Shown here in pieces: positions 8,869 through 62,147 of a DNA stretch of 64,000 nt (positions are counted from its first letter, which is position 1; every line of letters starts with the position of its first letter). Origin of the DNA: Streptomyces sp. NBC_01353 (GTDB taxonomy: Bacteria; Actinomycetota; Actinomycetes; Streptomycetales; Streptomycetaceae); NCBI RefSeq assembly GCF_036237275.1, contig NZ_CP108352.1, positions 7,148,501 to 7,212,500 on the forward strand. Reading direction: 5' to 3'. Under the pieces are notes generated by a model that searched no databases, was not told the DNA's origin, and saw nothing but the letters and a program-made list of their open reading frames with translations. The position numbers and the translations under genes are program-made.

Positions 8869-9960
8869 ATGGCCACCGCGCCCCGCCCCCGCACCTCCAC
8901 CCGTGACCCCGAGGAGCTCGGCCGTCGGCTCACCGACTGGCTCGAACCGGTCCTTCCCGGCGCCCGGGTCACCGACCTCGCCGTCCCCGGCTCCAACGGC
9001 ATGTCCAGCGAGACCCTGCTCTTCGACATCGACCATCCCCACGCGCCGGTGCGCGGCTGCGCCCTGCGGCTGGCCGCCGACCCCGCCGCGTACACGATCT
9101 TTCCCGTCTACGACATGGAACGGCAGCACCGGGTGATGAGCCTGGTCGGGGAGCACACCGACATCCCCGTGCCGCGCGTGCTGTGGCTGGAGCCCGAACC
9201 AGGGCCGCTCGGCGCCCCGTTCTTCGTGATGGCCCGGGCCGAGGGCCGCGTCCCACCGGACGTCATGCCCTATACGTACGAGGGGAACTGGCTGCACTCC
9301 GCCACCGACGACGAACGCGCCCACCTGGAGGCCGAGTCCGTGTCGGTGCTGGCCCGGCTCCACGACCAGTTCCCCGCGAAGGAGGCGGAGTTCCTCCTGC
9401 CCGAGGGGACCGGCAGCCCACTGCGACGGCACGTCGACGCCCAACGCGCCTACTACGCCTGGGTGGTGGCGGGACTCGCGCCCTCCCCGCTCATCGAGTC
9501 CGGCTTCGACTGGCTGGAGGCGCACTGGCCCGCCGACGAGGGCCCGGCCGTCCTGAACTGGGGCGACGCCCGCATCGGGAACATCGTCTACGACGGATTC
9601 CAGCCCGCGGCCGTGCTCGACTGGGAGATGGCCGCCTTCGCCCCGCGCGAGGTCGACCTCGGCTGGACCGTCTATCTGCACCGCTTCTTCCAGGACCTGA
9701 CCGTGAGCTTCGGCCAGCCCGGGCTGCCCGGCTTCCTGCGCCGTGACGCGATCGAGCGGCGCTACGCAGCCCTCACCGGCCACACACCGCGGGACATGGA
9801 GTTCCACACCCTCTACGCGGCGCTGCGGCACGCGATCGTGATGCTCAGGGTCGCGTACCGCCAGGCGCACTTCGGAGAGGTCGAGGTGCCGGAGAACCCG
9901 GACAGCCTGATCCTGCACCACGCCACGCTCGCGGCGATGGTGCGGGGAAGCTACTGGTAG
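8869..9960 (+). CDS. Phosphotransferase (APH/ACAD10-type kinase-like)
   Basis: A 363-residue protein of the aminoglycoside phosphotransferase fold. The catalytic loop reads WGDARIGN and is followed by the metal-binding region AAVLDWEMAAF, with the usual HGD replaced by WGD, as is common in the ACAD10/11-associated branch. Such proteins accompany acyl-CoA dehydrogenases and are linked to hydroxyacyl metabolism rather than drug resistance. AGAAGGAG lies 7 bp before ATG 8869; a TTG two codons upstream is less likely. It follows the CrtC-like gene by 30 bp, so co-transcription is likely. Confidence 0.82.
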   Translation: MATAPRPRTSTRDPEELGRRLTDWLEPVLPGARVTDLAVPGSNGMSSETLLFDIDHPHAPVRGCALRLAADPAAYTIFPVYDMERQHRVMSLVGEHTDIPVPRVLWLEPEPGPLGAPFFVMARAEGRVPPDVMPYTYEGNWLHSATDDERAHLEAESVSVLARLHDQFPAKEAEFLLPEGTGSPLRRHVDAQRAYYAWVVAGLAPSPLIESGFDWLEAHWPADEGPAVLNWGDARIGNIVYDGFQPAAVLDWEMAAFAPREVDLGWTVYLHRFFQDLTVSFGQPGLPGFLRRDAIERRYAALTGHTPRDMEFHTLYAALRHAIVMLRVAYRQAHFGEVEVPENPDSLILHHATLAAMVRGSYW

Positions 9961-37173: not shown

Positions 37174-37258
37174 GCGGGGCGGTCGCACCCGGGGTACCAC
37201 GTCCTGTTGCGCCGCGGGGTGCATCTGCGTCGTTTCGACCGTTGTCGGTGCGAGGACC

Positions 37259-37264
37259 TAATCT
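37259..37264 (+). promoter_or_regulatory. -10 element of a probable leaderless transcript of the SMC-like operon
   Basis: TAATCT ends 7 bp before GTG 37272, so the transcript would begin at or next to the start codon. There is no ribosome site at normal spacing. No convincing -35 box is visible, so the promoter may be weak or activator-dependent. Confidence 0.4.
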
Positions 37265-37271
37265 GTGCATC

Positions 37272-38798
37272 GTGACTTCGCCTGCCTCGACGGACCTCGT
37301 TCCGCCCCAGCTCAGCGCGGGGCCGCGGCCCGCGCAGGGCCCGGCCGCCGACGAAGGGCTCGCGCGGCGCCTCCGCGCGCTCGCGTGCACCGCGCCGCTG
37401 CACGACCTGGACACCCGCAAGGCGAACCTGGCCGGTGAGTACTCGGTCTACGCGATGGCCGAGGTCGCTCTTTCCGCCATCGACCTCGTCACGCTCAATA
37501 TGGACTTCGACACCGGCGCCGACCACGAGCAGATCGTCGCCCGTCTCCTGCCCCGCGTCGCCGCCCAGGCCCCCGCCCGCCCCGCCGCCGAACATGAGCG
37601 CGTGGCCCGCTGGGTCCTGGAGAACCTGATCAACGTCGGCAGCGTCGACCGCGGCTTCCGCGCCGTCTACGGCACCTTCGGTGCCGACGGCGTCTACACC
37701 CGCCGCGACTACGACTTCAAGCTGATCGAAGAGGTCCCCGGCTACGGCGGAGGCGTCTACCTCCGCACGACCGACGAAGCGGTCAACGTCCTCGTCGGCG
37801 CCCTCGACACCGACGTCACGAGCGCACAGATAGCGGCTGAGGTGAAGCTCGAGGTCCTGATCAGCCGCGGCCGGCTCGCCGACGCCCAGCTGGCCGCCGA
37901 GCAGGCGCGCTACCGGACCGTGCAGTACGCCGAAAGCCTCCGCAGGACCCTGGAGGCGACCCGGCGCAACGTCCGCGCCGTGGACTGGCTGCAGGCCGTT
38001 CCGGACATGATCGCCGAGGCGCTGGACCACGTCGCCGACCGCTACCGCCACGAGAACGCGATCCTCACCAACATCCGCAAGGCCCGCGACGAGGCCGAGG
38101 ACGCCGAGCACAAGCGCCGCGCCGCCGAGCTCGTCGACATCGTCAAGGACTGCATCCGCCGCCACACCCAGCTCCAGTCCCGCCTCCTGGAGGCCGGCCC
38201 GCTCTTCCGTGCCGAGCAGGACCGGCAGGCCTTCGCCGCGCCCACCTCGTACACGGGGATAGATCTGTACGGGCAGCTCGTCGCGCCGATCCTGCCGCTC
38301 CCCGTCGAGCAGGCGACCAGGGTCACGGACGCCTTCTTCGCCCGCGGCACGGGACTGCGCACGCCCGCCTCCGTACGCGTCGGGGACCTGGTCGAGATGC
38401 TGCTCACCCCGCCGGTCGAGCGGGAGCACCTCGGCGCGGAGATGCCCGAGCCGGACCTGATCGCCACCCCCGACGACAGCCGCTTCAGCGAGGAGCAGCT
38501 GGCGAGCGCGATGGAGCTGCTCGACCTGGAGTACGACGCCCCGCGCCGCCTCTCCGGCCTCCTCGCCGACGCTCGCCGCCGCGACCCCGACCTGCCGTAC
38601 CTGGTCGCCCTCCTCGCCGTCCACGCGGCGAGCCCCCCGGTCGGCACCGCGTACCGCCAGGGCGAGGAGCGCCTGCTCTTCGCCGTCGACGACGGCACGC
38701 AGCTGGACGACCCGGAGTTCGGGGGCGCCGACTTGATAGTGGGTACGGCGCTCCTGGACGCACTCGGCATGGCGGCGGACCGCACGGAGGCCTCATGA
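37272..38798 (+). CDS. Putative kleisin-like subunit (MksF/JetA-like) of an SMC-type complex
   Basis: A 508-residue, mainly alpha-helical cytosolic protein. The first 200 residues look like a winged-helix/helical region (YSVYAMAEVALSAIDLVTLN, YTRRDYDFKLIEEVPGYGGG). A long helical middle follows (AQLAAEQARYRTVQYAESLR, RAAELVDIVKDCIRRHTQLQ). The C-terminal part has LLDLEYDAPRRLSGLLADAR. It resembles MukF/MksF/JetA proteins in size, order and fold class, but I cannot prove homology by eye. GTG 37272 fits a leaderless mRNA. Its stop overlaps the next start (ATGA at 38795-38798). Confidence 0.6.
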   Translation: MTSPASTDLVPPQLSAGPRPAQGPAADEGLARRLRALACTAPLHDLDTRKANLAGEYSVYAMAEVALSAIDLVTLNMDFDTGADHEQIVARLLPRVAAQAPARPAAEHERVARWVLENLINVGSVDRGFRAVYGTFGADGVYTRRDYDFKLIEEVPGYGGGVYLRTTDEAVNVLVGALDTDVTSAQIAAEVKLEVLISRGRLADAQLAAEQARYRTVQYAESLRRTLEATRRNVRAVDWLQAVPDMIAEALDHVADRYRHENAILTNIRKARDEAEDAEHKRRAAELVDIVKDCIRRHTQLQSRLLEAGPLFRAEQDRQAFAAPTSYTGIDLYGQLVAPILPLPVEQATRVTDAFFARGTGLRTPASVRVGDLVEMLLTPPVEREHLGAEMPEPDLIATPDDSRFSEEQLASAMELLDLEYDAPRRLSGLLADARRRDPDLPYLVALLAVHAASPPVGTAYRQGEERLLFAVDDGTQLDDPEFGGADLIVGTALLDALGMAADRTEAS

Positions 38799-39502
38799 CC
38801 ACGGACCGGGCGGAAACCGGGACGATGGCGCGGACCGCGCCCATGGACGGATTCCCGCCACCGGCCGAGGCGGCACTCGTCGACGGTTCTCCGTCGCCGG
38901 CCGTGGCCACGCAGGGGCACACGCCACTGGGCGACCGCGAGCCGGCAGCCGAGCCCCGGCTCCCGGCCGGGCCGTCGGTCGACGGGGTGGCGCCGGGCAT
39001 CGGCGCGGTACCCGTCGCGGACGAGACCGCGTTCGTGTCCGGTCCTTCGGCGGCCGGGAGTGAGCTTGCGGCCGATGGTCTGCCCCCGGCCGAGCCCCGG
39101 CTCCCGGCCGAGCCCCGGCTCCCGGCCGAGCCCCGGCTCCCGGCTCAGGGCCTGCTCCCGGTTCAGGGCCCGCCCGCGGGCGAGAGTTCCCTCGAGGGGG
39201 AGGTCGGCGCGTCCGACGCCGGCTCGCTCCCGAGCCGTGAGGCTCCGGTCGCCGCAGAGGAGACGCCCGCCGCGCGCGGCGCCGCGCCCGTCATGGCCGT
39301 CGGGGTCGTGTCGGCGCCCGCGTCGGCGCGCCGGAGTCCGGCGCCCTTTGTGCGGGCCGTCCGGCTGAGCGCCCCCGCGGGCGCGTCCGGCGACGTCCCG
39401 CCCCGGCGGAAGGCGGTGCGCGTCACCCCGGTCCGCCTGCCCCTGCCGCGCCCCGTCCCCACCGCACCGCCGACCACCCCCACCGAGGAGCCCCAGCCGT
39501 GA
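38795..39502 (+). CDS. Pro/Ala-rich disordered protein inside the SMC-like operon
   Basis: A 235-residue protein, almost wholly low-complexity: PAEPRLPAEPRLPAEPRLPA near residues 98-117, long Ala/Pro/Glu stretches, and a basic tail (APFVRAVRLSAPAG, PPRRKAVRVTPVRLPLPRP). No domain is recognised. Overlapping starts on both sides (ATGA with the kleisin-like gene, GTGA with the MksE-like gene) argue that it is translated as part of the operon. It may be a tether, a DNA- or partner-binding disordered subunit, or a drifting linker gene. Confidence 0.65.
   Translation: MTTDRAETGTMARTAPMDGFPPPAEAALVDGSPSPAVATQGHTPLGDREPAAEPRLPAGPSVDGVAPGIGAVPVADETAFVSGPSAAGSELAADGLPPAEPRLPAEPRLPAEPRLPAQGLLPVQGPPAGESSLEGEVGASDAGSLPSREAPVAAEETPAARGAAPVMAVGVVSAPASARRSPAPFVRAVRLSAPAGASGDVPPRRKAVRVTPVRLPLPRPVPTAPPTTPTEEPQP
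39086..39139 (+). repeat. Three tandem 18-bp repeats encoding PAEPRL-type units
   Basis: Three exact copies of an 18-bp unit (CCGGCCGAGCCCCGGCTC) at 39086-39103, 39104-39121 and 39122-39139. They lie within the disordered protein and keep frame. Confidence 0.9.
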
Positions 39503-40395
39503 GCGAACACCACGCCGAGCACGCCGACGCGTGGAGCGAGCCGGAGCCCCCGCACACCCCCGCCGCGCCCGCCGCCGTCACCCCCGCGGACGCCGCCGAC
39601 GCCGCACGGCTCGTCTCGTTCGGGCTGCAGCCCAAGCTGCTGCCCGCCCGCGACGCCGAGTACGCCGAGCTGCTCCGGCGCTACCGCGAGGACCCCGCCT
39701 TCGCGCGCCTCGCCGACGCCGTCGCCACCGGCCTCGGACTCGTCGTCCTCGAGGTCTCCCCGCGCGCGGGCATGGCCGTCACCGCCGGCGAGGACTCCGT
39801 CTTCGCCGTCCGCATGGGCGACTACGCCCGCCGCGCCTCGACCGACTCCGCCGACCGGTTCCTGCACGGCCTCGCCCACCTCGCCGTCGCCGCCATGGCC
39901 TTCCCCCGCCCCGAGGACCTCGCCGACGACGGCTACATCGGCCGCCTCACCGTCAACGGCGTCGACTCCTTCGTACGCCAGGCCTGCCGTCGGCTCGAAG
40001 AGCGCGCCGAGGAGCAGGGCGAGAACACCGACCCCGCCTCCGACGCCCCCGGCCTGGAGGCCGCCTGGCGGATCTACGCCCGCCGCAGCTCCACCGGCGC
40101 CACCAAGGACGCCCGCCGTCTCGCCGGCTCCACGACCGGCATCGTCGGCAAGGCCGTCACCTTCCTCACCGAATCCGGGTTCCTCCAGCGCACCGGAGAC
40201 GACGCCGGCGGCGCCTACCGCACCACCGCCCGCTATCAGCTCCAGGTGCGCGACATGGCGGGCAGCGCCGCCATGGCCGAGCTCCTCGACCTCGGCGTCG
40301 TCCCCGTCAGCGACGGCTCCGCGACCCTCCTCCCGCCGCCCGACGGCGACGACCTGGAGCTCGCCGCCGACGCCGGCCTGCCCTTCCACGCGTAA
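39499..40395 (+). CDS. MksE/JetB-like winged-helix protein
   Basis: A 298-residue protein. The first 40 residues are acidic and disordered. Then FGLQPKLLPARDAEYAELLR, YREDPAFARLADAVATGLGL, LEVSPRAGMAVTAGEDSVFAV and a helical C-terminal half (VGKAVTFLTESGFLQRTG) fit the small MukE/MksE/JetB class, which bridges kleisin and SMC ATPase. GTG 39499 overlaps the upstream stop. Position between a kleisin-like and an SMC-like gene supports the call; sequence identity to known families is too low to judge by eye. Confidence 0.6.
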   Translation: MSEHHAEHADAWSEPEPPHTPAAPAAVTPADAADAARLVSFGLQPKLLPARDAEYAELLRRYREDPAFARLADAVATGLGLVVLEVSPRAGMAVTAGEDSVFAVRMGDYARRASTDSADRFLHGLAHLAVAAMAFPRPEDLADDGYIGRLTVNGVDSFVRQACRRLEERAEEQGENTDPASDAPGLEAAWRIYARRSSTGATKDARRLAGSTTGIVGKAVTFLTESGFLQRTGDDAGGAYRTTARYQLQVRDMAGSAAMAELLDLGVVPVSDGSATLLPPPDGDDLELAADAGLPFHA

Positions 40396-40452
40396 CCGCC
40401 CCGCGCCACCGCCCCGCGTCATCACCGAACCAGTCGACGAGAGTCCGCCGCC

Positions 40453-43400
40453 ATGTACGAGCTGTCCCGGGTCCGCCTCTACTCCATCGGTCCCGCCGGT
40501 GCGCGCTACGCCGACACCGTCCTGGACCTGCGCGGAGTCGGCGCGCCCGTGCCCCACCCCGCCCCCACCCAGGCGGAGTTCTTCGAGGAGGAGCCGGTCG
40601 GCCCGCCGCGCCGCCCCGCGCCCGCCGGCGTGCTCTTCCTGGAGAACGGCGGCGGCAAGTCCGTCCTCCTGAAGCTGATCTTCTCGGTCATGCTCCCCGG
40701 CCACCGCAACACCCTCGGCGGCGCAAGCTCCGGCGTGCTCCGCAAGTTCCTGCTCGCCGACGACTGCGGCCACGTCGCCCTGGAGTGGCAGCACACGCTC
40801 ACGGGCGAGCTCGTCGTCGTCGGCAAGGCCAGCGAGTGGCGCGGCCGCCAGGTCTCCAACGACCCTCGGAAGTTCGCCGAGGCCTGGTACTCCTTCCGCC
40901 CCGGACCCGGCCTGAGCATGGACAACCTCCCGGTCGCCGAGTCCACCGCCGTCCGCGCGCCCGTCGAGGGAGCCTCCGGCGCGCAGGGCCGCCGCCGCAC
41001 CATGAAGGGCTTCCGCGACGCCCTCACGGAGGCGGGAAAGGCGTACCCGCACCTGGAGGTCTACTGGGAGGAGATCCACGACCGCTGGAACGAGCACCTC
41101 GGCGACCTCGGTCTCGACCCCGAACTCTTCCGCTACCAGCGGGAGATGAACGCCGACGAGGGTGAGGCCGCCGGCCTCTTCGCGGTCAAGAAGGACTCCG
41201 ACTTCACCGACCTGCTCCTGCGGGCCGTCACCGACACCCGTGACACCGACGGCCTCGCCGACCTGGTCGGCGGCTTCGGCAACAAGCTCGGCCGGCGCGC
41301 CGAACTGACCGCCGAGCGGGACTTCACCGCGGGCTCCGTCGACCTCCTCGGACGGATCGTCGAAGCCGCCGGGACCCGGGCACGCGCGCGTGACGTCCAC
41401 GCGGCGTCCGAGCGCCGCACCCGTACGCTCGCCCGCCGCCTCTCCGCCCGCGCCACCGAGGAACGAGGCCGCACCGCCGAACTCGCCCAGCAGGTCACCT
41501 CCGCCGCGCACGCCGTCTCCGAGGCCGAGACCGCGCGCGGACGCAGCTCCCTCATCGCCGCCGAACTGGCCTACCGGCACGCCTCCCTGGCGCTGACCGT
41601 CGCCGAGAAGGGCGCCGCCTCCCAGCGCCGCGAGCTCACCGACGCCCGCACGCTGCACGCCGCCTGGCAGGCCGCAGAGGCCGTGCTCCGCAACCGGGCG
41701 GCCGGCGACCGCTCCGCGCGCGTCGCCGCCGCGATCCGCGAGGCCGAGCGTGACGCCGCGCCCGCGCTCGCCGCGCGCGCCAAGGCCGCCGCCGATCTCG
41801 TACGCGCCCTGCACGCCGCCGCCGAGGAGGGTGAGCGGCACGCGGCCGAGGAGGAGGAGCGCTCCGCGGCCCTCCAGGACGCAGGCGAGACCGCCCACCG
41901 CGACGCCACCGCTGCCGCCACCGAGGCCCAGCGCGCCCGCAGCGAGACCGGACACCTGCGGCAGCGCCTCGCCGAGGTCGAGCAGGAGACCGCCGAGGCG
42001 GTACGGGCGGGCTGGCTCGACGACACCGCCCCGGACGCCGACCCGGCACGCGCGGCCCTCGCCGCGAGCGACGCCGAGAAGACCACGGTCGCCGCCTGGG
42101 ATGCGGCCCGCGACGCGGCCCGTACCGCCGCCGACCACGCCCGCGAGGCCGCGGCCGCCGAGTCCCGCGCCGAACTCGCCGCCGCCCGCGCCACGGACGC
42201 CGCCGAGGCGGCCGAGAACGCCTACGACGCGGAACGCCGCGCCGCCGAGTCCCTCGCCACCGACGCACGCCTGGCCGAACTCCTGAGCCTGCCGGCCGCC
42301 CGGTCGACCTCCCCGTTCCCGGGCCAGCGCGCGGGGGAGACCGACGGAGCGGGCACCGAGGGCCAGAGCGCCGTCAGCGGCCGCGGCCCGGACGCCGAGC
42401 CGGGCGGCCCCGGACGGACGACGGGGGCGCACGGAGTTCCCGGCCAGAACGGGCGAGGCATCGGCTCCGGCGAGCCCGGCACGGGCTCGGGCGCGGATGC
42501 CGCCCCCGGCGCCGCCTTCGGGCTCGCGGGCGCGCCGGACTCCGGTTCCGAAGGAACCCCCGGCCCGCTCACGGTCACCGAGTTCGACCGGTACGCCGAC
42601 GAGCTCCGCCGACTGCTCGACCAGTCCATCGGCTCCGCCGAGCGTCAGCTCTTCGACCTGCGTACCGCCGCCGCCGACGACTCCCGCATCCTCGGCGCCC
42701 TCGGCGACGGCGGACTGCTGCCGCCGGGACCGGACGTGCTCGCCACCGTCGAGTACCTCGGCGAACAGGGCATCCCGGCGCTCCCGGGGTGGCGCTATCT
42801 CGCCCAGGCCGTCGACCCCGCCGACCACGCTGCCGTCCTGGCCGCCCGCCCCGAGCTGGTCGACGGCGTCGTGATCACCGACCCCGTCTCGTACGCCCGC
42901 GCCCGTGAGGTGCTGAGCACGGCAGCCCTGCTGCCGCGCTCCACCGTCGCCGTCGGCACCGCCGCCGCGCTCCTCGCGCCCGTACCGAGCCCGGACTCCG
43001 GCGAGGACACGGGCGTCTTCCTCGTCCCGCCGAACCCGGCCATGCACGACGAGCACGCCGCCGACGAGGAGCGGCACGCCCTGCGCGCCCGCGCCGTCGC
43101 CCGCGACGAGGAGATCCGCACGCTCGCGGCCCGGCTCACCGGCGACCGTTCGCTCGCCGCCCGGATCGGCTCGTGGCGAGCCGACTGCCCGCCCGGCATG
43201 ATCGCCGAACTGGCCGCCGTCGCCGCCGCCGCGCGCGAGACCGCGGAGGCGGCCGCGGCCACGCTCGCCGAGGCCCGGACGGTACGGGCGGAGGCCGACG
43301 AGGCCGCCGCCGACGCCGCCCGCGTACGGGACGAACGCCAGGAGGCCGCCCAGCGCGCCCGCCGTGTCGCCGACGCCCTCGCCGGCCTGGCGTTCCGGCT

Positions 43401-45288
43401 GCGCGAGCGGTCCGCCTGGCAGGCCAAGCTCCGCGAACTGGCCGACGACGCCGCCGAGTCCGAGGCCCGCGCCCAGACCTGCCTGGAGCGGGCCCGCGCC
43501 GCCGACGAGGACCGCCGCGCCGCCCAGCGGGCCGCCGACGACGCCCACCGCACCGCTCGCGCCCTGCGCGCCGAACGGGCCGAGATCGCCGGCGCTCCCG
43601 ACCAGCTCCCCGAGGAGGACGCGGCCGCGCCCCGTACCGCGCTCCCGACCCTCCGCGAGGCGTACCGCGCCGCGTCCCAGCTGTACGAGAAGGTCGGTGT
43701 CGGCGCCGACCTGCGCGCCGAACAGGCCCGCGCCGAGAGCGACGAGTCGGCCGCTCTCGCCGAGCTCGACCGCCTCACCAACAAGGTCCGCACCCGCGCC
43801 GAGCAGCTCCTGGAATCCACCGACGGCGCCGACGGCCCGTCCCGCCAGGCCGCGGCCGCCCGCGCCGAAGCCCTGGTCCAGATGCTGGAAACCCGCGCGT
43901 CCGAGGCGAGCGAGAAGCTCGGCCGGCTCCGCGGCGAGGCCGAACGACTGGCCCCCGAGGACGGCGAGTCGCACACCGACCTGCCCGAGGACCAGGTCCC
44001 CGCCGACGCCGAGCAGGCCCAGACCCTGCTCCGCACCGCGACCACCGAACTCGCCGCCCGTAGCGATGCCCTGGAAGCCGCGCGCACCGCGCACGCGAGC
44101 CTCCTGAGGGCCCACCGCGCCGCCGAGGACGCCGCGGGCGGCTTCGACGAGACCGCGGCGCTCCTTCGCGACCTGCTGCGCGACCACGGAGAGGACGAGG
44201 AGGACGGCCCGGAGACGTACCCCGGCACGCTGGAGGAGGCGCGGCACACCGCCGCCGAGGCCCGCCGCGCGCTGCGCGCCTGCGCCGCCGAGCTCTCCTC
44301 GGCCGACGCGGCGGTCCGCGAGGCCGGCGACATCCTCGTCCGGCACGCCAACTCCACCCGCTACGAGCAGGTCCGCACCCCGGCCCGGCAGCAGATCCGT
44401 GAACTGCCCGCCGCCGCGCTGCCCGAGCACGCGGGGAAGTGGGCCGAGGCGTTCGCGCCCCGCCTCCGGGTCCTCACCGACGAGCTGGAGCAACTGGAGC
44501 GCAACCGCGACTCCATCGTCGACCGGCTGCGCGGACTGGTGGAGTCGGCGCTGACCACGCTCCGCTCGGCGCAGCGCCTGTCGCGGCTGCCCGAGGGCCT
44601 CGGCGAGTGGTCGGGGCAGGAGTTCCTGCGTATCCGCTTCGAGGAGCCGGACCAGGCCACCCTCACCGAGCGGCTCGGGGAGGTCGTCGACGAGGCGACC
44701 CGCGCCGCCGTCAAGAAGAACTCCGACATGCGCCGGGACGGAATGTCCCTGCTCCTGCGGGGCGTTCAGGCCGCGCTCGAGCCGCGCGGCATCGCGGTCG
44801 AGATCCTCAAGCCGGACGCCGTGCTGCGGGCCGAGCGCGTACCGGTCGGGCAGATGGGCGACGTCTTCTCCGGCGGCCAGCTCCTCACCGCCGCCATCGC
44901 GCTGTACTGCACGATGGCCGCCCTGCGCTCCAACGACCGGGGCCGGGACAAGCACCGGCACGCGGGCACGCTGTTCCTCGACAACCCGATCGGCCGCGCC
45001 AACGCCACGTACCTGCTGGAGCTCCAGCGTGCGGTCTCGGACGCCCTCGGTGTCCAGCTGCTGTACACGACCGGTCTGTTCGACACGACCGCGCTCGCGG
45101 AGTTCCCGCTGGTCATCCGGTTGCGCAACGACGCCGACCTGCGGGCCGGGCTGAAGTACATCAGCGTGGAGGAGCACCTGCGCCCAGGGCTGCCGCAGCC
45201 GAGCGCGGAGGGCGAGGCGATTCACGGCGAGATCACCGCGACCCGGATGTTCCGACGCTCGCAAGTCGAGGAGTCCGTCCCGCAGTAG
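40453..45288 (+). CDS. SMC/MukB-like coiled-coil ATPase (JetC/MksB-like), 1611 residues
   Basis: The N-terminal ATPase half has LFLENGGGKSVLLKLIF with Lys69; the first Gly of a canonical Walker A is missing. Ala/Glu/Arg-rich heptads follow to about 610, then a Gly/Ser-rich insert (about 615-706) and a globular hinge-like region (DSRILGALGDGGLLPPGPDV, EYLGEQGIPALPGWRYLAQA). The second coil returns to a C-terminal half with signature FSGGQLLTAAIALYC (Ser1473) and Walker B TLFLDNPIGRAN. Asp1510 is followed by Asn instead of the usual Glu. It is larger than JetC or MukB. It is the last gene of the operon and ends at a 12-bp-stem terminator. Confidence 0.8.
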   Translation: MYELSRVRLYSIGPAGARYADTVLDLRGVGAPVPHPAPTQAEFFEEEPVGPPRRPAPAGVLFLENGGGKSVLLKLIFSVMLPGHRNTLGGASSGVLRKFLLADDCGHVALEWQHTLTGELVVVGKASEWRGRQVSNDPRKFAEAWYSFRPGPGLSMDNLPVAESTAVRAPVEGASGAQGRRRTMKGFRDALTEAGKAYPHLEVYWEEIHDRWNEHLGDLGLDPELFRYQREMNADEGEAAGLFAVKKDSDFTDLLLRAVTDTRDTDGLADLVGGFGNKLGRRAELTAERDFTAGSVDLLGRIVEAAGTRARARDVHAASERRTRTLARRLSARATEERGRTAELAQQVTSAAHAVSEAETARGRSSLIAAELAYRHASLALTVAEKGAASQRRELTDARTLHAAWQAAEAVLRNRAAGDRSARVAAAIREAERDAAPALAARAKAAADLVRALHAAAEEGERHAAEEEERSAALQDAGETAHRDATAAATEAQRARSETGHLRQRLAEVEQETAEAVRAGWLDDTAPDADPARAALAASDAEKTTVAAWDAARDAARTAADHAREAAAAESRAELAAARATDAAEAAENAYDAERRAAESLATDARLAELLSLPAARSTSPFPGQRAGETDGAGTEGQSAVSGRGPDAEPGGPGRTTGAHGVPGQNGRGIGSGEPGTGSGADAAPGAAFGLAGAPDSGSEGTPGPLTVTEFDRYADELRRLLDQSIGSAERQLFDLRTAAADDSRILGALGDGGLLPPGPDVLATVEYLGEQGIPALPGWRYLAQAVDPADHAAVLAARPELVDGVVITDPVSYARAREVLSTAALLPRSTVAVGTAAALLAPVPSPDSGEDTGVFLVPPNPAMHDEHAADEERHALRARAVARDEEIRTLAARLTGDRSLAARIGSWRADCPPGMIAELAAVAAAARETAEAAAATLAEARTVRAEADEAAADAARVRDERQEAAQRARRVADALAGLAFRLRERSAWQAKLRELADDAAESEARAQTCLERARAADEDRRAAQRAADDAHRTARALRAERAEIAGAPDQLPEEDAAAPRTALPTLREAYRAASQLYEKVGVGADLRAEQARAESDESAALAELDRLTNKVRTRAEQLLESTDGADGPSRQAAAARAEALVQMLETRASEASEKLGRLRGEAERLAPEDGESHTDLPEDQVPADAEQAQTLLRTATTELAARSDALEAARTAHASLLRAHRAAEDAAGGFDETAALLRDLLRDHGEDEEDGPETYPGTLEEARHTAAEARRALRACAAELSSADAAVREAGDILVRHANSTRYEQVRTPARQQIRELPAAALPEHAGKWAEAFAPRLRVLTDELEQLERNRDSIVDRLRGLVESALTTLRSAQRLSRLPEGLGEWSGQEFLRIRFEEPDQATLTERLGEVVDEATRAAVKKNSDMRRDGMSLLLRGVQAALEPRGIAVEILKPDAVLRAERVPVGQMGDVFSGGQLLTAAIALYCTMAALRSNDRGRDKHRHAGTLFLDNPIGRANATYLLELQRAVSDALGVQLLYTTGLFDTTALAEFPLVIRLRNDADLRAGLKYISVEEHLRPGLPQPSAEGEAIHGEITATRMFRRSQVEESVPQ

Positions 45289-59944: not shown

Positions 59945-61228
59945 GTGAACCGCCGAACTCCGTGGCACAGCACCGTCCTCAACCGCATTCCCGGCGGCCG
60001 CGACGGCCGCCGGATGCTCATCGTCAGCATCATCGACAAGACCGGCACCGGCCTGTGGGCCGGCTGCACCGTCCTCTACTTCACCTACGTCTCAGGCCTC
60101 GGCCTCGGTCAGGTCGGCCTCCTCATGACGATCTCCGGCGGCGTCGGCATCGCCGGCGCCCCGCTCGCCGGACGCCTCGCCGACCGCTTCCCCCTCGTCC
60201 GGATCATCGTCGGCGCCCAACTCATGCGCGCCGCCGCCCTCCTCGCCCTCCTGAGCACCGACAACTTCCTTCTGCTCACGCTCTACTCCGCCCTCGGCGC
60301 CCTCCCCGATCGCGCCGGCAGCGTCCTCATCAAGCTGTACGCAGCCCGCCTCGCCGGACCCGACCGCGTCCGCTACCAGGCCATCCAGCGCACCACCGTC
60401 AACATCGGCTGGTCCATCGGCGGCCTCGGCGCCGCCGCCGCACTCGCCACCGGCAGCACGAGCGCCTACGGTGTGCTCCTCATCGGCAACGTCCTCACCT
60501 ACTTCGTCATCGCGGTCCTCACCCTGCGCTGCGACGAACCCCCCGCCCCCGCCCGCGTCGCCGCCACCTCCGCGACATCCGGCGACCGAGGGCCCGCCAA
60601 GCCGACCAACCCCTGGCGCGACCGGACCTTCCTCGGCTACACGGCCACGGAGGCCGCCCTCTTCCTCGACGACACGATCCTCCAGGTCGCCATCCCCCTC
60701 TGGATCGTCCACGCCACCTCAGCGCCCGTCGGGCTCGCCCCGCTGCTCCTGGTCCTCAACACCGTTCTCGTCGTCGCCTTCCAGGTCCCCCTCGCCCGCT
60801 TCGGTGCCACCACCCACGCCGCCCGGCGGCTCCTTGTCCCACTCGCCGGCCTCTTCGTCGTCGGCACGCTCGCCCTCGCCGCCTCGGCCGCAGGCGAACG
60901 CCCCCTCGCCATCTCGGCCCTCGTCATCGCGGTCATCGCCCTGAGCTTCGCCGAGATCATCCACGCGACCGCCTCCTGGGAACTCTCCGTCGCCCTGGCC
61001 CCCGCCGAGGCCCAGGGCGCCTACCTCGGCGTCCACGGCCTCGCCCACTCCACCCAGCGATTCGCCGGCCCCCTCCTGATCACCGGTGTGATGTCGGTCG
61101 GCGCGATCGCCTGGCCCCTCCTCGGCCTCGGCCTCGTCGCCGCGGGTGCCGCGCAGCACCGCCTGATCCGTGACCGGATCACCAAGCCGTCACTGTCAGT
61201 GGCGCCGGTTACGGTGAGTGAGCACTGA
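59945..61228 (+). CDS. MFS transporter divergent from MocR regulator
   Basis: A 427-residue protein with 12 predicted helices. The N terminus is NRRTPWHSTVLNRIPGGRDG, followed by KTGTGLWAGCTVLYFTYVSG. Loops include GAPLAGRLADRFPLVRIIV (MFS signature) and RTTVNIGWSIGGLGAAAAL. It resembles efflux-type MFS permeases (DHA1). Substrate unknown. GTG 59945 has GGGGGAAA at normal spacing. It is adjacent to the MocR gene with a shared operator, and its stop is 22 bp before the next gene. Confidence 0.87.
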   Translation: MNRRTPWHSTVLNRIPGGRDGRRMLIVSIIDKTGTGLWAGCTVLYFTYVSGLGLGQVGLLMTISGGVGIAGAPLAGRLADRFPLVRIIVGAQLMRAAALLALLSTDNFLLLTLYSALGALPDRAGSVLIKLYAARLAGPDRVRYQAIQRTTVNIGWSIGGLGAAAALATGSTSAYGVLLIGNVLTYFVIAVLTLRCDEPPAPARVAATSATSGDRGPAKPTNPWRDRTFLGYTATEAALFLDDTILQVAIPLWIVHATSAPVGLAPLLLVLNTVLVVAFQVPLARFGATTHAARRLLVPLAGLFVVGTLALAASAAGERPLAISALVIAVIALSFAEIIHATASWELSVALAPAEAQGAYLGVHGLAHSTQRFAGPLLITGVMSVGAIAWPLLGLGLVAAGAAQHRLIRDRITKPSLSVAPVTVSEH

Positions 61229-61250
61229 TCGACAGCGCTCAGGGGGAGAC

Positions 61251-62147
61251 ATGACACGACCCGGCACCACCACATCCCTGCGCCGCGCCCTGCGCCGCGA
61301 GGTCCCCAGCACCGTCGGCCTCCTCGCCGACGAGGAGGACTTCACCGCCATGCGCCGGTACGACACCTTCGCCTTCGACGACCACCCGGCCTACCTCCGC
61401 CAGATCGAGGGCCTGCTCAAGGCACTCGCCGGCCAGGGCGGGCACACCACCGTGGCCCTCTTCGACCCCGAGGAGTACGCGCAGTACTGCGACGACGCAG
61501 GCCTCGACCCCGACCGCCCAGCCAGCCGCAGCCGCTTCACCGCCGAACTGGCCGCCACCGGAGCCCGCATCCCCTACACCGGCCAGCCCATGACCACCCT
61601 CGTCCCCACCCTCATCGACGCAGCCGTCCGCCGCGCCACCTGGGAGTACGCCGCCATGCTCCTCACCGACACCGGCGACTGCGCCGACTGCGGACAGGAC
61701 ATCGGCCGCGCCGCCTTCGACCGAGCCTCCCACCTGCTCATGCGACTCCTCGAAGGCGCCGGACCCGGCACCCACCACCTCGTCTGCAGCGTCCCCGCCG
61801 CGGACGAACAACTCCTCGCGGTGCTCCACGCCACTCGCGACCAGGACGGCCCCGCCCACCTCGACAGCGGCGCCGGAGCCGAATTCGCCACCGTCCTCGC
61901 CGCCGGCATCGCACACGACAGCCCCGGGGGAGTTGTCCTGCGCACCACAAGGCCCGGAGCACGCGACAGCCTCCACGGCTGGCGCCTCACCCAGGGCACC
62001 CTGCACCCCCTCACCGAAGCCGAGGTGTTCAGCGCCTACTGCACCGACGCCCACACCGGAGACCCACTCCCACCCGAACCCCACGTCGACTACCGCGCCG
62101 GCTTCCCCGTCACCCCCGAGGACGACGACTGGCCCACGCACCACTGA
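61251..62147 (+). CDS. Conserved hypothetical protein
   Basis: A 298-residue protein without signal or membrane segments, acidic, with CADCGQDIGRAAFDRASHLL near 144, a possible Zn-binding CxxC. No family is recognised. ATG 61251 has AGGGGGAG just upstream; a GTG at 61218 overlapping the MFS stop is a less likely start. It follows the MFS gene closely and may be co-transcribed under MocR control. It ends 5 bp before the terminator shared with ptsI. Confidence 0.8.
   Translation: MTRPGTTTSLRRALRREVPSTVGLLADEEDFTAMRRYDTFAFDDHPAYLRQIEGLLKALAGQGGHTTVALFDPEEYAQYCDDAGLDPDRPASRSRFTAELAATGARIPYTGQPMTTLVPTLIDAAVRRATWEYAAMLLTDTGDCADCGQDIGRAAFDRASHLLMRLLEGAGPGTHHLVCSVPAADEQLLAVLHATRDQDGPAHLDSGAGAEFATVLAAGIAHDSPGGVVLRTTRPGARDSLHGWRLTQGTLHPLTEAEVFSAYCTDAHTGDPLPPEPHVDYRAGFPVTPEDDDWPTHH

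Follow-up and report, generated by a model that had tools for sequence, protein, structure and literature searches.

What does a Wadjet-type SMC operon do in Streptomyces when the nuclease that defines Wadjet is missing? The question is raised by a 64,000-nucleotide stretch of Streptomyces sp. NBC_01353 (assembly GCF_036237275.1, contig NZ_CP108352.1; hereafter the window), which spans 7.15-7.21 Mb of an 8.47-Mb contig in a genome of 8.57 Mb and carries jetA, jetB and jetC, plus one further open reading frame (ORF), with no detectable jetD. We put a probability of about one half on the reading that this JetABC complex descends from a type III Wadjet, has lost its nuclease, has been kept vertically in Streptomycetaceae and belongs to the LexA/RecA-independent DNA-damage regulon of PafBC. 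The computed parts of this reading are the family assignment, the lack of a detectable JetD, the near-universal occurrence of JetA, the intact ATPase motifs of JetC, the signs of purifying selection and the match to the promoter motif. The overall picture suggests that a weapon against plasmids was converted to a task in DNA repair or on the chromosome.

The locus comprises four ORFs, all on the + strand, with successive overlaps of 4 bp and 4 bp followed by a gap of 57 bp, which reproduces in full the sizes and spacing given in the original prediction. They are jetA (37272..38798, GTG start, 508 residues), encoding the kleisin subunit; ORF 2 (38795..39502, 235 residues); jetB (39499..40395, 298 residues), encoding the KITE subunit; and jetC (40453..45288, 1611 residues), encoding the SMC ATPase. 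The program-made ORF list opens jetA earlier, at an in-frame TTG (37242); we took GTG 37272 as the probable start because conservation among relatives begins there. The GC content at third codon positions, 0.93 for jetA (in its longer TTG-start version), 0.89 for ORF 2, 0.96 for jetB and 0.94 for jetC, supports all four ORFs as coding.

None of the four proteins matched a significant Pfam or NCBIfam family. PADLOC profiles identified gene 1 as JetA3 (E 1.3e-186) and gene 4 as JetC3 (E 0); gene 3 had no PADLOC match at E<=1, and its product is 39-54% identical to the JetB proteins of seven Wadjets that do carry JetD. Sequence searches of the PDB retrieved no relevant relative, MukB, MukE and MukF of solved structures included. 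AlphaFold models of JetA and JetB, built from 40-row alignments, were then compared with the PDB using Foldseek. The JetB model (predicted local distance difference test score, pLDDT, 80.5; predicted template modelling score, pTM, 0.74) matched exclusively MukE, MukEF, MukBEF or JetABC chains among its top 15 hits, the best at E 1.1e-3 and none at E<=0.001. The MukE-type fold anticipated for the 298-residue protein is thus clearly favored over an unrelated one. The JetA model (pLDDT 75, pTM 0.44) found a MukBEF chain (MukF) as its best match (E 0.012) and a JetABCD entry, 8q72, at rank 7. Nine of its top 12 hits were Muk or Jet entries, with query TM-scores of 0.17-0.24 and three designed helical proteins interspersed among them; such low scores and intruding designs make fold support for JetA weak. 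The MukF-type assignment of the 508-residue protein therefore survives on weaker ground. Collectively, these results place the products of genes 1, 3 and 4 in the type III Wadjet family, as JetA, JetB and JetC respectively. The earlier proposal of a JetABC/MukBEF-type complex without JetD in the conserved chromosome is upheld and made more precise, to a type III Wadjet relative; genuine JetABCD relatives occur within the genus too.

The ATPase motifs of the 1611-residue protein were compared over 36 rows with a single JetC ORF of more than 1300 residues, split copies being excluded. The Walker A motif LENGGGKS (40639..40662, residues 63-70, + strand) lies near the N-terminal end, whereas the ABC signature FSGGQ (44866..44880, residues 1472-1476, + strand) and the Walker-B-like LFLDNPIGRAN (44971..45003, residues 1507-1517, + strand) lie near the C-terminal end. 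LENGGGKS, FSGGQ and the LFLDNPIG part of the last motif are each identical in 19 of 19 JetD-less rows, and the predicted ATPase motifs of JetC are thus intact. A low-complexity insert (42310..42555, residues 620-701, + strand) is missing from over three quarters of the JetC rows that come with JetD. The ratio of nonsynonymous to synonymous substitution rates (dN/dS) against three relatives was 0.05-0.12 for jetA, 0.07-0.16 for jetB and 0.15-0.16 for jetC, values indicating that all three genes are under purifying selection.

Searches for the nuclease were negative in the NBC_01353 genome. JetD_C (PF09983) had no match there, and among 14 control genomes C. glutamicum matched; the JetD protein of a relative (P0005) matched one of 21 genomes, namely its own; and the JetD3 profile PDLC00594 had no match in the NBC_01353 genome, type II JetD not having been searched with its own model. 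The lack of a detectable JetD elsewhere in the genome is consistent across PF09983 and the JetD3 protein and profile. Across 150 genomes of the genus, PDLC00594 matched in 21, strongly in 11 (E <1e-40) and weakly in 10 (E 2e-7 to 8e-4; these were not looked at further). In all 11 strong cases JetD directly follows a second, divergent jetABC; by their coordinates, this copy and the core jetA are separated by 0.3 Mb or more, or occupy different contigs. Hidden Markov model (HMM) searches found no JetD in 65 of 80 named loci, namely those with jetA, jetB, jetC and at least 1.5 kb past jetC (60 from Streptomycetaceae and five from Frankiaceae, some duplicating sampled genomes; the other 15 were cut or had no match for one of the parts). 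As a separate observation, a jetABC of another family (L198, left out of the trees), also without JetD by HMM, carries in the JetD position an HxlR-type regulator gene (9386-9727) that overlaps jetC by 4 bp.

JetA is widespread. A close JetA (82-100% identity) was found in 146 of the 150 genus genomes, a few of these matches being partial; G058, G081 and G087 (completeness 82, 98 and 78%) had no JetA match and G129 only a distant one. JetA of another genome of the genus (G365) is 97% identical. At family level, 60 of 61 Streptomycetaceae genomes and 16 of 17 genera have a close JetA (75-100%), the remaining genome (G551) having a distant match only, at a JetD-bearing Wadjet locus. A class-wide sample yielded JetA matches in 60 of 394 genomes and six of 137 genera. 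Among Frankiaceae (family code f20; Frankia, Parafrankia and Pseudofrankia), 19 of 35 genomes matched, mostly at 61-64% identity. Twenty loci of this Frankiaceae block were fetched, 18 of them with JetA at or near the main type of the family: 11 show no JetD although their sequence extends 1.2 kb or more past jetC, three carry JetD (L066, L073 and L075), and the remainder are cut by contig ends or fall outside the family, so that the nuclease-less form is present in 19 of 35 genomes at most. In a third family (f48; L069, L193, L194 and L195) no JetD was found by HMM. The f48 jetABC lies near a glyceraldehyde-3-phosphate dehydrogenase gene in L193 (5579-6652, by Pfam), L069 (9993-11033, by likeness) and L195 (12292-13305, by likeness).

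A careful JetA tree and a quick JetC tree with long branches, both midpoint-rooted, split the loci without nuclease into three groups that are interspersed with JetD-bearing loci, the deep branches being JetD-bearing; in the JetA tree the order of the two large groups is unsettled. Approximately unbiased (AU) tests on the quick JetC tree, with ten Frankiaceae rows including one whose JetD status is not established (L064), rejected a single clade of all three nuclease-less groups (p 0.0006), and with it a single loss common to them, and did not reject a clade of Streptomycetaceae plus Frankiaceae (p 0.285), nor therefore one loss common to these two. Pairwise identities of JetC and JetD were correlated across 16 JetD-bearing loci (Spearman 0.48; none of 999 permutations as high), although nearest neighbors in the two proteins disagree for several of these loci. 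Together, the trees, the AU tests and this correlation fit inheritance with two or more losses of JetD better than repeated gains.

The regulatory clue lies immediately upstream of jetA. At 37242..37264 (+ strand), 7 bases before the GTG and in a leaderless-like arrangement, we found an exact RecA-NDp/PafBC-type DNA-damage promoter motif, TTGTCGGTG-N8-TAATCT. The consensus tTGTCRgtg-8nt-TAnnnT is quoted in PMC5656591; the promoter is named RecA-NDp and described as used by PafBC in PMC6789036, and single-stranded DNA (ssDNA) is given as the PafBC signal in mycobacteria (PMC11804915). Alignment of 220 bases upstream of jetA, taken from the window and from 77 loci at >=80% identity (78 sequences, some genomes being present twice), revealed a single conserved block just 5' of the jetA start, with only scattered conserved bases further up. 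A looser pattern, TGTCRG-N10-TAnnnT, occurred in 101 of 117 Streptomycetaceae promoter segments, compared with 0 on the other strand, 0 for the reversed pattern and 0.03 in base shuffles; over 72 named loci it occurred 65 times in all, versus twice for its reverse.

Exact RecA-NDp sites numbered 21 in the NBC_01353 genome versus none for the reversed control, 14-44 in each of 13 Streptomyces genomes (this one included; one control match in total) and 0-7 in each of eight genomes from other families. Eight of the 20 other sites in the NBC_01353 genome precede recA, ruvC, dnaX, rpsF-ssb, a beta-clamp gene, a UDG gene, a recD2-like HHH gene and a gene classed as radA-type from its domains; L203 was left out of the scan. 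The genome also encodes a PafC- and PafB-like pair, recognized as an HTH_PafC match (E 1.5e-31) adjoining a WYL/WCX gene. A precedent for the response comes from S. coelicolor, where expression of a macrodomain gene with RecA-NDp is reported to rise 5-fold after UV, its deletion not being damage-sensitive (PMC5087735). From these sequence matches we infer that PafBC controls jetABC in Streptomyces.

Several observations weigh against this reading. The strict motif is present in just 23 of 118 Streptomycetaceae promoter segments, and the looser one is itself missing from 16 of 117, nine of which are one base off by eye. Many motif sites precede genes without a clear repair role: those outside the repair set lie before genes of unknown function, transporter genes, a hydrolase gene, SWIM, PhoH and Trypco1 genes and a macrodomain match below the cut-off. 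The HTH_PafC profile is non-specific, matching five of 14 control genomes as well. The looser motif was found in two of 23 Frankiaceae segments (the 23 include L068, which lacks the motif and whose JetD status is not established) and one of four f48 segments, so a link to damage is no general trait of JetABC sets without JetD; conversely, among 21 JetD-bearing Wadjet segments there were two strict and six loose matches (L078, L079, L084, L085, L077 and L086), so the damage promoter is not unique to nuclease-less sets either. The counts over 150 and 61 genomes cover JetA alone rather than jetB, jetC or an intact operon. Finally, PMC9380542 mentions an initial search which suggested a lack of conservation of the mycobacterial PafBC motif in S. 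venezuelae; for the genus, our RecA-NDp counts in 13 genomes point the opposite way.

Two other functions deserve weight, each with a clearly minor share of our belief. The complex might act in defence without cutting: damage-induced JetABC would fully extrude or entrap small circular or phage DNA, blocking replication or transcription of that DNA in the manner of eukaryotic Smc5/6. Wadjet JetABC senses circular DNA according to the review PMC10586767, and the occurrence of the same promoter type on six of the 21 JetD-bearing Wadjets would allow damage to signal invasion. The RecA-NDp-like promoters ahead of some type III Wadjets with JetD also raise the possibility of a damage-induced form of Wadjet defence. 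However, a JetA kept at 82-100% identity in nearly all genomes of the genus is unlike a mobile defence gene, and no JetA at >=60% identity was found in 72,556 plasmid records (four records at 28-53%) and no match at all in 50,697 phage records.

Alternatively, JetABC could be a housekeeping condensin for chromosome organization or compaction of the spore nucleoid, a role we regard as possible though improbable to a similar degree. JetA is core in the genus and the family, as such a role would have it; yet the promoter conserved upstream of jetA is a DNA-damage one, and Smc already serves Streptomyces spores (PMC13121528). The specific sporulation role put forward in the original prediction thus found no support, the damage promoter being the sole regulatory signal found in a survey that did not search for LexA boxes or sporulation-factor sites.

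It is unlikely that the complex is a functional Wadjet served by a nuclease gene at another genomic site. Plasmid suppression in B. subtilis did need all four subunits (PMC10586767), which would call for such a nuclease; however, neither JetD_C nor JetD3 matched in the NBC_01353 genome (with the limits on type II JetD and on the ten weak profile matches given above), and strong JetD3 matches, restricted to 11 of 150 genomes, each sit beside a jetABC of their own. A decaying Wadjet remnant, for which one could invoke the occasional broken copies, is contradicted by JetA in 146 of 150 genomes, dN/dS of 0.05-0.16 and motifs intact in all 19 rows, and has a negligible chance of being right. The broken copies (among them loci L011 and L012) are G012, with a cut jetA and no jetB or jetC found alongside, G010, with a split jetC, and G095, with one TGA in jetA. 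Separately, G127 and G136 have extra JetA matches.

ORF 2 had been presented as a disordered second gene lacking a counterpart in MukBEF or Jet. It is present, disordered and Pro/Ala-rich, with a 4-bp overlap with jetA and with jetB, and had no family match in Pfam, NCBIfam or PADLOC. The jetA-jetB spacer ranges from overlap to ~790 bp across relatives, dN/dS of ORF 2 against three relatives is 0.47-0.86, and its recurrent TEEPQP end is explicable because the GAGGAG ribosome site of jetB encodes it. On these three grounds the idea of a new subunit was set aside, and ORF 2 is best described as open yet no conserved gene, that is, a lineage-specific spacer ORF in near-neutral evolution. Among close relatives (L014, L186-L191 and L192) its length varies from 53 residues, in L192, to 265, and besides the TEEPQP end, VRAVRL-like and VTPVRLPLPRP-like motifs recur in most of them.

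Downstream of jetABC, the window contains NIT-kinase, roadblock and DUF742 genes, a set which we take to be a conservon and which recurs in six of 11 fetched Streptomycetaceae loci; the neighbors of Frankiaceae jetABC differ from these. A second loose promoter match, TGTCAG-N10-TACGGT, lies at 61194-61215 of the window, just 5' of an ORF (61218-62147) with no Pfam match at E<=1e-4.

Set against known systems, the complex shares with type III Wadjet (JetABCD, with DUF3584-type JetC) the JetA3 and JetC3 profiles, a homologous JetB and the A-B-C order, and differs in the lack of a detected JetD, its core and apparently vertical occurrence, the JetC insert and the conserved DNA-damage promoter. 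Because the defining JetD nuclease was looked for and not found, we do not count the Streptomyces complex as a Wadjet system. Pseudomonas MksBEF, which serves chromosome organization and belongs to another Wadjet type, is likewise an SMC-kleisin-KITE set without a nuclease gene, but comes from another phylum and probably from a separate loss, and is likened here by description rather than by direct sequence comparison. In P. aeruginosa, this condensin is reported to derive from a Wadjet by loss of JetD (PMC10586767), and the Streptomyces JetABC may work like the Wadjet core or like MksBEF. With MukBEF it shares the MukE-like predicted fold of JetB and perhaps, on the weak matches above, a MukF-like fold of JetA; it differs in having no relevant PDB sequence match, and Streptomyces also has Smc (PMC13121528), which MukBEF replaces elsewhere. 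As for the PafBC/RecA-NDp regulon, jetA shares the exact promoter motif with recA, ruvC and others in the genome, whereas no SMC complex figures among its members in the portions of the literature consulted, and PafBC control here is a prediction. According to PMC10482375, Wadjets are enriched in Actinobacteria and, within Streptomyces, near the ends of the chromosome. We found neither a near-universal nuclease-less type III set nor a damage promoter for one described in the literature searched, which was mostly open-access.

In the reading we prefer, ssDNA accumulating after damage would lead PafBC and RNA polymerase to transcribe jetABC. Dimers of the JetC ATPase, linked by JetA as kleisin and JetB as KITE subunit, would load on DNA and extrude loops in Wadjet fashion without cleaving it, an activity carried over from characterized Wadjets. 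JetABC could thereby compact, hold or align the damaged chromosome or sister DNA while RecA, RuvC, RadA and SSB, whose promoters bear the same motif, carry out repair. Its most likely use would thus be on damaged or replicating chromosomes in the RecA-independent damage response. More tentatively, and at odds well short of even, Streptomycetaceae may have domesticated a plasmid-destroying SMC complex by shedding its nuclease and putting it under ssDNA-sensing PafBC, which would make it a functional analogue in bacteria of eukaryotic Smc5/6, a damage-induced loop extruder for recombinational repair, perhaps also restraining small circles without cutting them. Frankiaceae (perhaps independently) and the third family (independently) would have lost the nuclease as well. 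In these two families the loss is mostly without the damage promoter, and the f48 loss is independent by the AU test.

How one SMC machinery can maintain chromosomes and also provide immunity is a question raised in the review PMC10586767, which suggests that MukBEF and MksBEF are former defence systems. Because a nuclease-less complex and an armed JetABCD coexist in one genus, with at least two apparent losses, this switch becomes directly comparable here. The preferred reading predicts that mitomycin C induces jetABC through PafBC. If true, a genus in which Smc is the condensin studied for spore compaction would have a second, near-universal SMC complex.

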